From the IMG/VR virus record IMGVR_UViG_3300020185_000201, positions 1 to 28,264 of that record: 28,264 nucleotides of DNA. One strand, given 5' to 3'. Made by a program: the position numbers and the translations under genes. Positions 12,181 through 17,067 of the stretch are shown here, piece after piece. This DNA comes from a virus. Numbering within the stretch: position 1 is the first letter of the stretch; each line of letters opens with the position of its first letter. Below the pieces are notes generated by a model that searched no databases, was not told the DNA's origin, and saw nothing but the letters and a program-made list of their open reading frames with translations.

Positions 12181-12627
12181 TTATACTGCCACATCAGGAT
12201 TTTTTTCCTTGACATAGTAATTACTTATAAAGGTTAGAGAAACAAAACCAAGTGGCTTCTCACCTTCCGCGTTAAAACTTATTTCAGTTGATTCAATAAA
12301 TGTATCTTTAGCTAAACCACCTAACGTTCTATCAGCAGCTATAGCTTCTTCAACTTCTTTGCTTATTGTATCAATAGTATCATCAAAATTGCTTGTTGCT
12401 TTTGCATATCCCTCAACAACAACTGATAATTCTCTACTCATAACTCTATCAGTACCTATAACAATTGGCTCTGATGTTTCTGACTTTGTGTATATAACTA
12501 ATGCTGGTAGTTTAGAATTTTCTATAGGATAGACTCTTGATTCATAAACATTGGAACCAGTTGTGGATAAACCAGTTAAATTAGTACCAAAATATTCTCT
12601 TATTTGTTGTCTAATATGATTTGCCAT
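12181..12627 (-). CDS. Tail terminator (gpU-like)
   Basis: This 148-aa protein is predicted to cap the tail tube and join it to the head. It starts with a helix (MANHIRQQIREYFGTNLTGL), then has the typical SRVYPIENSKLPALVIYTKS strand-loop-strand in which P-x-L-P-x-(I/L)-x-V-Y-T is the family hallmark. RELSVVVEGYAKA, an acidic helix and a final strand (FVSLTFISNYYV) follow. The order FII-like, U-like, tube protein matches lambda. A one-base TAATG overlap links it to the upstream gene. Confidence 0.82.
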   Translation of the reverse strand: MANHIRQQIREYFGTNLTGLSTTGSNVYESRVYPIENSKLPALVIYTKSETSEPIVIGTDRVMSRELSVVVEGYAKATSNFDDTIDTISKEVEEAIAADRTLGGLAKDTFIESTEISFNAEGEKPLGFVSLTFISNYYVKEKNPDVAV

Positions 12628-12977
12628 TATGTTTCCTCTAACATTAGTGCTGTAAGACCTGTTCTGTCTTTTTGCACATCAATTATAGTATAGTTTTGTG
12701 CAGCTTTTAATATATCACCTTCAACAGTTGTAGTTGCACTTGCATTTAACAAATCACCTTGAGAAACATTTGGAACATCTATGCTTCTGCAATATGCAAT
12801 AGGTTTAGTGGCTTCAACACCAATACCTGCATCTTGTTCTACATACTCTCTATTTAAAATAATTTTTATAGCTGTAGATACGCCACTTCTTATATATGTA
12901 GCTGCAATAGCATGACCAAAATCAACATCAAAATAAGCCAACATATCTTCTTCAGTCTCTAACATATACTGTGACAT
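12627..12977 (-). CDS. Head-tail stopper-like protein 2 (gpFII-like)
   Basis: This 116-aa β-barrel-type protein has the pattern IKIILNREYVEQ, YCRSIDVPNVSQGDLL, YTIIDVQKDRTGLTALMLEE. The upstream neighbour at 12977-13378 has the same pattern, and both resemble gpFII/head-completion proteins. The final D-x-T-G-L-x-x-(V/L)-(M/V)-L-E-E strand is shared by both. It is expected at the head-tail junction, either as stopper or as a second ring. One-base overlaps link it to both neighbours. Confidence 0.68.
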   Translation of the reverse strand: MSQYMLETEEDMLAYFDVDFGHAIAATYIRSGVSTAIKIILNREYVEQDAGIGVEATKPIAYCRSIDVPNVSQGDLLNASATTTVEGDILKAAQNYTIIDVQKDRTGLTALMLEET

Positions 12978-13378
12978 TATTGTTCCTCTAAAACTACTTC
13001 AATTAGACCTGTATTATCAGGCATTACTGTTTTTATTAAAAATAATGTTTGTGGTACAAGTGTATTACCATTATTAGTAGTTATGGCATTTACTTGTATT
13101 TTGTCACCATGATTTATATATGGTGCATCTGTGGCTTTGATAATTGCTCTTGGTTGATAGCCATCTACTGGCACTGTGCCACTTGCAATACTAAAGTATT
13201 CTTGATCTATAATTATATTTATAGGATAAGCATCACCAGTATCTATATCAAACCAAGTGTCTATAAGTCCTGTTCTAGCATCCCATAAAGTAGTTTGTGT
13301 TTCAAAGAATGTAGCAGACACCCCATGAGCGTTAGGGTCTACATAAGAGTTAAAATCTGCTGAACTCTCAATAGGCAT
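12977..13378 (-). CDS. Head-tail stopper-like protein 1 (gpFII-like paralogue)
   Basis: This 133-aa protein has the pattern INIIIDQEYFS, PRAIIKATDAPYINHGDKIQ, FLIKTVMPDNTGLIEVVLEE. It aligns by eye along its length with the next gene, so the pair looks like a tandem duplication with diverged N-termini (here SYVDPNAHGVSATFFETQ). By lambda order one of the two should be the stopper that seals DNA in the filled head. What the second does is not clear from sequence. Confidence 0.68.
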   Translation of the reverse strand: MPIESSADFNSYVDPNAHGVSATFFETQTTLWDARTGLIDTWFDIDTGDAYPINIIIDQEYFSIASGTVPVDGYQPRAIIKATDAPYINHGDKIQVNAITTNNGNTLVPQTLFLIKTVMPDNTGLIEVVLEEQ

Positions 13379-13641
13379 TATTTTTTAGCTCTTTTCTTTA
13401 CTGCTTTAGTTTCAGATTTTTTTAAGCCTACACTTCTATTTGTTTTCTTTGCTTTTGGCTTTTCTTTGTATAGTTCTGCTTTTTTATTAGCTACAAGATC
13501 AAAACCTTGAGCTTGGTCTAATTCAACAACATCACCAACATATACTCTTTGTTTGTTTGCAACTGTATCTCTTAAAATTAGATATTTATGCTTTTCAATA
13601 GAGGTGGGGCTTTTAACCCCACCATTTTCTGTAGTCAACAT
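13378..13641 (-). CDS. Small basic protein after capsid gene
   Basis: This 87-aa protein has a compact N-terminal part with the motif RVYVGDVVELDQAQGFDLVA, resembling small phage proteins with a V-G-D-x-V-E-L-D-x-x-x-A-x-x-L-(I/V)-x-x-x-K-A motif found after capsid genes (DUF7210/7302-like). The C-terminus is very basic (KPKAKKTNRS, KKRAKK). By position it corresponds to lambda FI, but I see no sequence support for that function. The first codons include a 7-bp inverted repeat at 13603-13623. Confidence 0.68.
   Translation of the reverse strand: MLTTENGGVKSPTSIEKHKYLILRDTVANKQRVYVGDVVELDQAQGFDLVANKKAELYKEKPKAKKTNRSVGLKKSETKAVKKRAKK
13603..13623 (-). other. Inverted repeat / hairpin just after capsid gene stop
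   Basis: GGTGGGG and CCCCACC form a perfect 7-bp GC-rich stem around a 7-base loop, in a region that is otherwise AT-rich. It lies in the first codons of the 87-aa gene, about 20 bases after the capsid stop codon. No U-run follows, so it is not a standard terminator. It could stabilise the 3' end of capsid mRNA or lower expression of downstream genes. Confidence 0.55.
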
Positions 13642-14885
13642 TAAGCGTCTTTACCTAAACAGAATGATACTGCATTTCTTACAGCAACATCTATCATTTG
13701 AATACCAACAACTCTTACAGTACCTTTAGAAGAATTCGTGTATGGGTCTACGATTATATCGAGACCACCAAAGAATCCAATCAATAGGTCTGAGAAGTTA
13801 CCAAAGTAATGATCACCTGAAGTAGGTTGGTTAGAAACAACAACACCATAGTTGTTAATTCTTCCGTCTCTATCTACAACAAACTGAGCAGTGCCTGTAG
13901 CCTTTTCAGTTGTTTTTAGTGAACCATAATCATCAGCTCTCATAATGTATGACAAGTTACCTAGTAATGCATTATCTACAGCAACTTGGCTTTCCATATT
14001 TACTGTTTCAGCCCATGTAGGGTTAGCAGCAGCAAATGTTACAGTGTTAATACCTGTAGTATTTTTAATACCAGTTGGATTGCCTGAAGTTCCTGTGCCT
14101 TCTAATGCACCTGAATCAATAGCTAAAGCCATGCTTTGTGCTATGTCATTTCTGATAAGATTCTCAACGTCTAAAGAGCTTTGTGTTAAAAGTTGTCTAG
14201 TGACATCTGTAAAACAACCTAAGGTCTTAGGTGACATTGTGACACTACCAATAGTCATGTCTGACTCAGCAACAGCAGTTCCTTCGCTTGATACGAAAGC
14301 AGCAGTTGATGCAGCAGTTTTCTTCGGTATTTTTACGTCACCCTGTAATCCACGTAATAATGTGGCTCCAGCTGACATAACAGAAGAAGAGTTTCTTAAT
14401 GCATCAATAAAGTCTCCACCTCTGAAGTCTTGACCTACCGCACCAGCATCATCAGTTGTATTCAACTCTCTTTGATTCCATTCCCTTAATACTTCAGGTG
14501 GTAACATAAGACCCTGAGAGTTTCTACCATATGCTTCAGAAGCAGCAGCTGAACATTCAAATTCAAATTCTGCAGCTCTTTGAGCAGCTCTGTCTGAAGG
14601 GTTAGCTAGTGCATTAATTCCTCTCACTAGGCTAAATCTCTTCATTTCTTTTTTGCTTAAACCGATGTCTTTTGGAGTTTCTAGTGGTTGGCTTGCGATA
14701 GTAGCAAGTAATTCACCTCTAAATTCTTCAATTGTTTTCTGTTCGGCTACAGCTTTTGCAGCTAAGTCTTTCTGATTGTGTCTTTCGCCTAATTTATTGA
14801 TCTCTATTGAGTTTCTTTTTAATTCAGCTTTGACTTCTTCAGCAGATTCAGCTCTTACGTTGTCTAAATTGACTTCGTTTTCCAT
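13641..14885 (-). CDS. Major capsid protein from internal start within fusion gene
   Basis: A perfect AAGGAG stands 6 bases before an in-frame ATG at 14885 (MENEVNLDNVRAESAEEVKA), among the best ribosome binding sites in the window. Translation from here gives a 414-aa capsid protein without the protease. It begins at the Δ/scaffold domain, as HK97 gp5 does. This would supply hundreds of capsid subunits per few protease copies. The start is inferred from the site and from domain boundaries; whether the full-length fusion is also made is not shown by sequence alone. Confidence 0.75.
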   Translation of the reverse strand: MENEVNLDNVRAESAEEVKAELKRNSIEINKLGERHNQKDLAAKAVAEQKTIEEFRGELLATIASQPLETPKDIGLSKKEMKRFSLVRGINALANPSDRAAQRAAEFEFECSAAASEAYGRNSQGLMLPPEVLREWNQRELNTTDDAGAVGQDFRGGDFIDALRNSSSVMSAGATLLRGLQGDVKIPKKTAASTAAFVSSEGTAVAESDMTIGSVTMSPKTLGCFTDVTRQLLTQSSLDVENLIRNDIAQSMALAIDSGALEGTGTSGNPTGIKNTTGINTVTFAAANPTWAETVNMESQVAVDNALLGNLSYIMRADDYGSLKTTEKATGTAQFVVDRDGRINNYGVVVSNQPTSGDHYFGNFSDLLIGFFGGLDIIVDPYTNSSKGTVRVVGIQMIDVAVRNAVSFCLGKDA

Positions 14886-15542
14886 TTTTATCTCCTTGAA
14901 AGATTGAGAACGTCCAACTCCTACAAGTCTGCTTTGATCTGCTGGTACTGACACGCTGGATACTTCCATCGGTGACCAAGCAGCTCTATATGCAACCTCT
15001 TTAGAGTCTTTTATCCTCATTAATTTATTTACACGGTATCCGACTGAAATATTCATCCTTATACCGTCCTTTACGTCTTCAAACACTTCTGAAGCAAGCT
15101 GACTCTTACCGAATCGAACTACTGCAATTGTCCTCTTAGCAGTTTCATCTAGTCTGAAATCTTCTATAACACCTATTTGCTTGCTCATATCATGGTCAAG
15201 TAGTAATGGTGCACGTCCGCTATTAATAAATTCCATATTAATATCGTCCGCTTTATGACTTAATATTTCTAAACCAAATGATCTCTCAACTGGCTCTTCT
15301 GAAGATACGCCTATTCTTACAGTCCTTGTATCTTCATCTATAAATTTTGCTCTTGAAAGGTCAATGTTTCTATATCTTATAGGCATGTCTACAACCTTTC
15401 TTTCATCTTCAGGCTCTTCATAGTTTTCTTCTTCTATGATTTCTTCTTCAACCTCTTCGCCTTCATGTTTAGCATACTCAATAACAACAGATTCATCTGT
15501 TTCGCTTACATTTAAAATATGTCTATCTTCTTTATTTTCCAT
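13641..15542 (-). CDS. Prohead protease fused to HK97-type major capsid protein
   Basis: This single 633-aa frame joins two proteins that are separate genes in HK97. Residues 1-50 are a very acidic leader. Residues about 51-210 are an S78-type prohead protease with candidate catalytic His117 (LLLDHD), Ser166 (NISVGY) and Glu193 (SPMEVSSVSVPAD). Residues 220-633 are the capsid protein: a helical scaffold-like Δ domain, then the HK97 fold (RELNTTDDAGAVGQ, LTQSSLDVENLIRNDIAQSM, GALEGTGTSGNPTG, SYIMRADDYGSLK). The start at 15542 follows GAGGAT 16 bases after the portal stop; longer in-frame starts lie inside portal. Protease cleavage would mature the shell and remove the leader and Δ domain. Confidence 0.85.
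   Translation of the reverse strand: MENKEDRHILNVSETDESVVIEYAKHEGEEVEEEIIEEENYEEPEDERKVVDMPIRYRNIDLSRAKFIDEDTRTVRIGVSSEEPVERSFGLEILSHKADDINMEFINSGRAPLLLDHDMSKQIGVIEDFRLDETAKRTIAVVRFGKSQLASEVFEDVKDGIRMNISVGYRVNKLMRIKDSKEVAYRAAWSPMEVSSVSVPADQSRLVGVGRSQSFKEIKMENEVNLDNVRAESAEEVKAELKRNSIEINKLGERHNQKDLAAKAVAEQKTIEEFRGELLATIASQPLETPKDIGLSKKEMKRFSLVRGINALANPSDRAAQRAAEFEFECSAAASEAYGRNSQGLMLPPEVLREWNQRELNTTDDAGAVGQDFRGGDFIDALRNSSSVMSAGATLLRGLQGDVKIPKKTAASTAAFVSSEGTAVAESDMTIGSVTMSPKTLGCFTDVTRQLLTQSSLDVENLIRNDIAQSMALAIDSGALEGTGTSGNPTGIKNTTGINTVTFAAANPTWAETVNMESQVAVDNALLGNLSYIMRADDYGSLKTTEKATGTAQFVVDRDGRINNYGVVVSNQPTSGDHYFGNFSDLLIGFFGGLDIIVDPYTNSSKGTVRVVGIQMIDVAVRNAVSFCLGKDA
14892..14897 (-). promoter_or_regulatory. 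Strong internal ribosome binding site for capsid protein
   Basis: AAGGAG lies inside the protease-capsid frame, 6 bases before the ATG at 14885. It falls exactly at the protease/capsid domain boundary. Confidence 0.75.
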
Positions 15543-15558
15543 AATTTTATCCTCTTTT

Positions 15559-17067
15559 TTAGGCATCTTCATCACCGCCTTCAATTATCGGCTCTATAGG
15601 TGCTTTAGTTGCACCAAAAGGCTGATAAGCTAATTCTATACCATATTCTTTAGCTAGTTCTACCTCTTTTTGGTGTTGTTCAAATAATTCTTCAGTATCT
15701 CTACCATAAGATGCTGATATGTCGCTATAAGTTACCGTTCCATTTTGTAAACCTATGACATTTGCATTCATTTCTTTTAATGGGTCAATCCAAGCAAAGT
15801 TTCTTGGTATAAATGTTGCTGATGCAATAAATTTGTCCGCTTTGTCGCTTGGTAGTGTTAAATAGCTAGAATCTATTGCCATTAACAACCATTCTGCAAA
15901 TATTGGCTCAATCATGTGTTCAATTAAGAACTGTTGCCATATTTGGTAACTGCTTCTGTCTTCTAAACTGCCTTGACGTATAGAAGAGTAGTTAACTGAT
16001 GTTAAATCATTACTTAAAGCATGATATGAAATGTTTAAACCACTTGCCACGCTTCTTAATACGCTAGATGTAAAACCTTCAAATGCACTTGTTGGATGCT
16101 GTGGGTCAAATGATTGAAATGATACTCCTGCTGGTAATTGTTCAAACGTACCTGCATTTGCAGTTTGCACTGGGTTACCATCTATTTCTTCTGAGTCTCC
16201 AACATAACCATCGCCATCAGGTGAAGTAAAGAAACCCATTTTAGAACTTGCAACTCTTGCAGCAACAATTTCAGCTTCAAGATATGCATTTAATTGTTTA
16301 ACATTAGCCATAACAGTAGCAATATTAGTAACACCTCTTGTTTGCTCAGGTCTAGTTGGCATGTATAGGTGTATTATTTCGTCTGCTGATACAACTATAT
16401 GCTCATTCTCATTCATATATGTTTTATCAAATGGATGATTCTTATAAAGATGATATGCAACTGGTTTGTCAAACTTATCAACTTCAACACCCATCTTTAT
16501 CTCATTACCAGTTGCAGGGTTTACCTTGTTTAAATCTTCATCTAAGTGGTCTGCTTCTAAAAACTGTATTTGAAAGCCAAATGGTGATTCAGGTCTTTTT
16601 AGCTTTCTAATTAAAACCTCTCCATCTCTTGCTAATGATTCTACTGCCATTTTTTGACAATCTAAGAATGATAATCTTCCATTTGCTGTACAATTACCTG
16701 TTTTAGACCACTGCTTCCATGCATCTTCAATAAGTCTGTTAGCTCTTATATCTAATTTGCCTTGATTGACTTCATCGTCTAGTCTTACTTTTTCACTTAG
16801 TCTTATACCTGATTTGCCAACTACATTTGATATCATTAGGTTTAAATATCTTGCTATATGCGAATCATTCCTAGCTAGTTCTCTAGCTCTATCTCTTAAA
16901 ACTCTTAAATTGTCTTTTATTTCTGCATCTGCTGATGCTGAACTTGTTATAAAGTCTGCAAAAAGCCTACCAGTGTTTGCACCAGCATAGCTTCTTTGTG
17001 TTTTAAATTTACGTTTTACTGTTGGTCTTTTAGAACCAAAATTAAATACTCTGTTATACCATGCCAT
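15559..17067 (-). CDS. Portal protein (lambda gpB type)
   Basis: This 502-aa protein forms the dodecameric portal at the capsid vertex, through which DNA is pumped. It has the lambda-portal family (PF05136) pattern: a basic N-terminus, LRDRARELARNDSHIARYLN, a SNVVGKSGIRL motif, CQKMAVESLARDGEVLIR, QIQFLEADHL and a VSADEIIHLYMPTRPEQTRG segment. The clip/stem region and the ASGLNISYHALSNDLTSVNYSSIRQG motif typical of this family follow. The C-terminal part interacts with terminase in relatives. It lies one base downstream of the gpW-position gene and just upstream of the protease-capsid gene, in lambda order. Confidence 0.93.
   Translation of the reverse strand: MAWYNRVFNFGSKRPTVKRKFKTQRSYAGANTGRLFADFITSSASADAEIKDNLRVLRDRARELARNDSHIARYLNLMISNVVGKSGIRLSEKVRLDDEVNQGKLDIRANRLIEDAWKQWSKTGNCTANGRLSFLDCQKMAVESLARDGEVLIRKLKRPESPFGFQIQFLEADHLDEDLNKVNPATGNEIKMGVEVDKFDKPVAYHLYKNHPFDKTYMNENEHIVVSADEIIHLYMPTRPEQTRGVTNIATVMANVKQLNAYLEAEIVAARVASSKMGFFTSPDGDGYVGDSEEIDGNPVQTANAGTFEQLPAGVSFQSFDPQHPTSAFEGFTSSVLRSVASGLNISYHALSNDLTSVNYSSIRQGSLEDRSSYQIWQQFLIEHMIEPIFAEWLLMAIDSSYLTLPSDKADKFIASATFIPRNFAWIDPLKEMNANVIGLQNGTVTYSDISASYGRDTEELFEQHQKEVELAKEYGIELAYQPFGATKAPIEPIIEGGDEDA

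Follow-up and report, generated by a model that had tools for sequence, protein, structure and literature searches.

Nested in-frame genes that pair a protease with an assembly protein are known from phage lambda (C/Nu3) and from the herpesviruses (UL26/UL26.5), where the long product consists of a protease plus an assembly part and the short product of the assembly part; UL26.5 is expressed from an internal promoter, and the lambda C protease has a different fold from the protease described here. In phage HK97, the prohead protease (gp4) and the capsid protein (gp5, with a delta domain at its N terminus) are encoded by two separate genes, and the protease is recruited to the prohead separately. 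Fusions of protease and capsid into one gene are also already known, namely PHROG 617 (Roseobacter CRP phages, Jilinvirus, VP882, phiHAP-1, R4C, and S-CBS1/3) and two other NCBI families, NF045541 and NF045540 (PHROG 4523 and PHROG 133), which are single-gene protease-scaffold-capsid fusions; the Gifsy-2 type fusion is presumably NF045540. Such genes are common; their annotation names one product, the major capsid protein, and the proposed model is an autocleaved polyprotein. A paper on Nocturne116 calls them natural fusions and cites an autocleavage proposal for Pseudomonas phage PAJU2 (PMC8306868), and the R4C structure paper models the mature shell only, without mentioning the word protease (PMC10276861).

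The fusion gene analyzed here lies in a virus record of 28,264 bases (the window). It has the protease family, shell fold, and N-terminal capsid delta of HK97 but in a single fused frame, and it contains an internal start site whose product, judging by the gene, would be a capsid subunit with delta, whereas the short product of C/Nu3 and UL26/UL26.5 is a scaffold. The internal start is the new part. In the literature searched, which did not extend to the Gifsy-2 capsid gene paper, we found no description of internal initiation in protease-capsid fusions, of a short capsid product, or of its recurrence across fusion lineages.

Genomic setting and domain architecture

The minus strand of the window carries a head region of the lambda type, with terminase GpA, a head-tail joining protein, a lambda-family portal, the fusion gene, two head-closure genes, and tail genes. 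The fusion frame runs without a stop from 15584 to 13641 and encodes 633 residues from the ATG at 15542 (13641–15542, minus strand). An alternative ATG at 15566 is overlapped by the upstream portal gene (15559–17067, minus strand), which ends 16 nt before ATG 15542, and has a stronger Shine-Dalgarno (SD) sequence (−8.5, compared with −5.8 at 15542), so that the start of the long form, 15542 or 15566, is uncertain. The two adjacent genes at 12627–13378 on the same strand both resemble the head-closure/attachment family PF05354 (PHROG 82), which suggests a tandem duplication.

An AlphaFold2 prediction (mean pLDDT 83.7, 76 sequences) together with profile searches resolves the frame, all on the minus strand, into an S78-type prohead protease, a disordered linker, a helical delta/scaffold region, and an HK97 shell domain. 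An acidic disordered segment (residues 1–60, 15363–15542, pLDDT < 50) precedes the protease domain (residues ∼61–213, 14904–15362), which matches Peptidase_S78 (PF04586) at residues 110–205 with 22.6 bits, above the cut-off of 21; the TIGR01543 match, at 30.2, falls under its whole-protein cut-off of 59. Every one of 76 relatives has His117 and Ser166, which we take, in line with the S78 family, to be the catalytic residues of the protease. The disordered, poorly conserved linker (residues 214–226, 14865–14903, pLDDT < 50) leads into the delta/scaffold-like region (residues ∼226–355, 14478–14867), which has predicted helices at 226–338 and is assigned its position on the model of the delta domain in HK97, and then into a flexible stretch (residues ∼356–375, 14418–14477; low pLDDT at 357–375) in which maturation cleavage would be expected. 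The shell domain (residues ∼376–633, 13644–14417) matches Phage_capsid (PF05065) at residues 377–631 with 144.6 bits and TIGR01554 with 125.1 bits, both above cut-off; its top Foldseek match is the R4C capsid (8gta, E = 2.7e-21), followed by D3, GTA, and HK97, and the alignment with the R4C virion shell sequence in 8gta begins at fusion residue 369.

The whole protein belongs to PHROG 617 (residues 56–632 against profile positions 9–623, 472.9 bits), whose members share its full-length protease-capsid architecture at 32–57% identity, and falls outside NF045541, which it matches with 131.8 bits over residues 68–301 only, against a cut-off of 525 bits over the full length. Fifty-seven phage records match it over 80% of its length. 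Most of them, like most PHROG 617 records, are named "major capsid protein," and the internal start is annotated in none of the PHROG 617 records examined. Single-sequence scans with the R4C and FoX3 proteins gave no matches, and a profile query did find relatives. Several relatives (L021, L026, L049, L080, and L082) have an extra in-frame module of ∼100 residues before the protease that the window lacks (PTxGMKxEAxRGLxWRxEFGRGGT...FFSRHEVDKxAEGF...NGRIAWALWGGDAG), and CRP-811 has an additional TUDOR-like match (PF11160) in its N-terminal part.

Where the protease ends, the minus strand reads TTC AAG GAG ATA AAA ATG, that is, an AAGGAG SD (14892–14897) separated by a 6-nt spacer (ATAAAA, 14891–14886) from an in-frame ATG (14883–14885, Met220), which opens a putative capsid precursor of 414 residues. 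Residue 220 falls in the disordered linker of the AlphaFold2 model, between the protease and the first delta helix (residue 226). The first-pass annotation had proposed both that protease and HK97-type capsid share one frame and that AAGGAG and an in-frame ATG lie at the domain boundary, and both proposals are borne out, the former by the open frame and the Pfam matches to the two domains and the latter by the position of 14897–14883 in the linker after the protease. Taken by itself, the window sequence provides modest evidence for an internal start: when the SD was randomized synonymously, the rank p value was 0.057. This value, and the resemblance of Lys, Glu, and Arg codons to an SD, would fit a coincidence in which linkers rich in Lys and Glu and containing a Met yield SD-like codons by composition.

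Conservation and codon choice at the joint

In the S78-HK97 fusion family, 261 fusion genes with a locatable protease-end motif form 123 clusters at 75% identity; even after clustering, related sequences are not fully independent. Because about 40% of any 20-codon stretch contains an ATG, so that an ATG in the linker is uninformative by itself, all tests were based on SD strength. An SD of −4 kcal/mol or stronger with an in-frame ATG is found within 60 codons after the protease in 104 of the 123 clusters, compared with 20–40 for equal 60-codon control windows elsewhere in the same genes; at −7 kcal/mol or stronger, the numbers are 37 for the linker and 0–5 for the control windows. The strongest SD-ATG of the gene is located in the linker in 68/123 clusters, against ∼10% expected from its length.

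The coincidence reading was addressed by picking the first linker ATG blind to the SD and comparing it with synonymous shuffles in which the amino acid sequence is unchanged. An SD of −4 or stronger is present at 95 of 116 such ATGs, and the linker SD exceeds that of the shuffles by 1.95 kcal/mol, whereas at control ATGs it is weaker than in the shuffles by 0.30 (Mann-Whitney p = 6e-15, with clusters that are not fully independent). Across clusters, then, SD strength goes beyond what the encoded residues demand, and with control ATGs devoid of such an excess, coincidence is strongly rejected and in our judgment extremely unlikely. Codon use points the same way in 28 close relatives, where AAG GAG is invariant despite a preference for AAA and GAA, although synonymous diversity in close relatives alone gives a weak signal (rank 58/628 for the KEIK window). 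The site is also more open: the opening cost is 8.2 kcal/mol, compared with 15.4 kcal/mol at control sites, in part because the GC content is lower (44% versus 58%).

The start persists although no segment of the protein is less conserved than the linker (mean identity 0.19–0.24). In the 80 closest viral loci, ATG and SD are kept while the linker residues vary (KEIKM, IEVKQM, NKDIIM), and the internal site is retained at 32–68% protein identity. A clear SD is absent from the internal site in ∼15% of clusters, including cyanophages; S-LBS1, S-CBS1, and S-CBS3 retain the internal ATG without an SD. In a cyanophage-like clade (L084, L091, L092, L164, L237, and L238), the ATG is followed by a conserved M-E/D start, again with no SD, and SD-independent internal initiation is possible there. 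Apparent internal stops in seven relatives turned out to be gene ends, a start effect, or a stop inside the shell domain (in one Helicobacter prophage, L102), and none lies at the boundary.

Other fusion lineages have the same feature. An internal SD-ATG is found in 32/35 clusters of S78 protease fusions to PF25209 capsids (NF045541) and in 16/16 clusters of ClpP-fold protease fusions to PF25209 capsids (as in NF045540), compared with 0–15 in control windows for the two types; both differ from the window in capsid family and the latter also in protease fold. In the Lactococcus phage c2 gene l5 (PHROG 3270), a protease-capsid fusion from a remote lineage with a Gram-positive host, AAAGGAG stands before an unannotated ATG at codon 131, just past the protease and ahead of the known mature start at codon 206, and in lactococcal phage Q54, GAGG precedes ATG 144. 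The protease folds are not related to one another, yet lineages have capsid or protease parts in common, so the internal start may have been carried along by the capsid module or may have arisen more than once. The expectation of the first-pass annotation that relatives keeping the fusion would also keep the internal site thus holds in nearly all of them, and in several fusion lineages. In a Haematospirillum prophage (L141:2438-5396), a second copy that consists of the capsid part alone and lacks the protease lies in tandem behind the fusion gene.

Split relatives and the polyprotein model

In Faecalibacterium phage FP_Epona and Dulem virus 34, protease and capsid protein are encoded by two genes, and the break falls at the same point at which the fusions are joined. 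In both, the protease stop codon overlaps a strong capsid SD, TAGGAGG or TGAGGAGG (L278:3500-3530, L366:2970-2995), which suggests coupled translation of the two genes. The two genes of Dulem virus 34 share one frame, so that losing a single stop codon would be enough to produce the fusion, its internal start already in place, and the fusion arrangement likely arose by such a loss between adjacent genes. These split relatives, with the same break and in one case the same frame, could also be read as showing that the internal start is a relic, an old capsid start that persists without function once the stop codon was lost. A start without function would be expected to decay in the most variable stretch of the protein, yet the site survives the divergence seen among relatives and its SD is under selection; we consider a functionless relic very unlikely, while the part of the idea that concerns origin may be correct.

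A polyprotein would make the full-length product only, with a protease on every subunit, autocleavage freeing the protease and delta, and a silent internal ATG. This is the view proposed for PAJU2 and cited in the Nocturne116 paper (PMC8306868), and it predicts, as nested genes do, that the mature domain alone is found in virions, as is the case for R4C, where the shell domain is all that the virion structure contains, and for c2 (start at codon 206). It leaves unexplained why ATG and SD are kept in a fast-evolving linker, why the SD exceeds coding needs, and why the site recurs in several lineages. In addition, taking the known dimensions of HK97, we estimate that over half of a T=7 prohead would be occupied by 415 protease-plus-delta units. 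We regard the polyprotein as unlikely, and conservation, recurrence, selection on the SD, and the split relatives together indicate that the "polyproteins" are most likely nested genes with two products.

A probable nested gene for protease and capsid precursor

A conserved internal in-frame start with a ribosome-binding site at a domain boundary is an arrangement of the lambda C/Nu3 kind. With a second ribosome start conserved at the joint in hundreds of related phages, the gene appears to make two proteins, and on the sequence evidence it probably comprises two nested in-frame genes, one for a protease-delta-shell protein and one for a 414-residue delta-shell capsid precursor. We infer that the internal start is used for translation; the working internal start envisaged in the first-pass annotation finds support in an SD beyond coding needs, low RNA structure, and the two split relatives. 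It is, in our assessment, somewhat probable that the same applies to all tailed-phage protease-capsid fusions, whose proteases have two unrelated folds and whose capsids come from two or more families, and that these are nested two-product genes rather than polyproteins, in which the boundary start is kept or regained because it sets the number of proteases per prohead.

In the proposed mechanism, initiation at the upstream start would yield the protease-delta-shell long form, and initiation at AAGGAG-N6-ATG (14885) the 414-residue delta-shell protein, which would be the real capsid precursor. The long form, presumably rare, would be incorporated as the prohead grows, by way of the delta and shell regions that it has in common with the short form, and co-assembly would fix the protease inside in a limited number with no separate targeting signal. 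Once the prohead is complete, the fused protease would remove delta from all subunits, leaving a shell protein of ∼265 residues, and the linker would let the protease reach its neighbors or be released. Two products from one frame would in this way place a few proteases in the head without a separate targeting system. Among annotated phages, the mean SD strengths of the long start (−5.5) and the internal start (−5.3) are similar, so the sequence gives no clear prediction of few versus many copies.

Use of the internal start would mean a different capsid precursor, a different protease dose, and a different route for the protease into the prohead, as well as a product that current annotations omit. 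Protease copy number and entry would become a direct genetic question, and these genes would provide a clean example of a gene fusion that retains separate dosage control.
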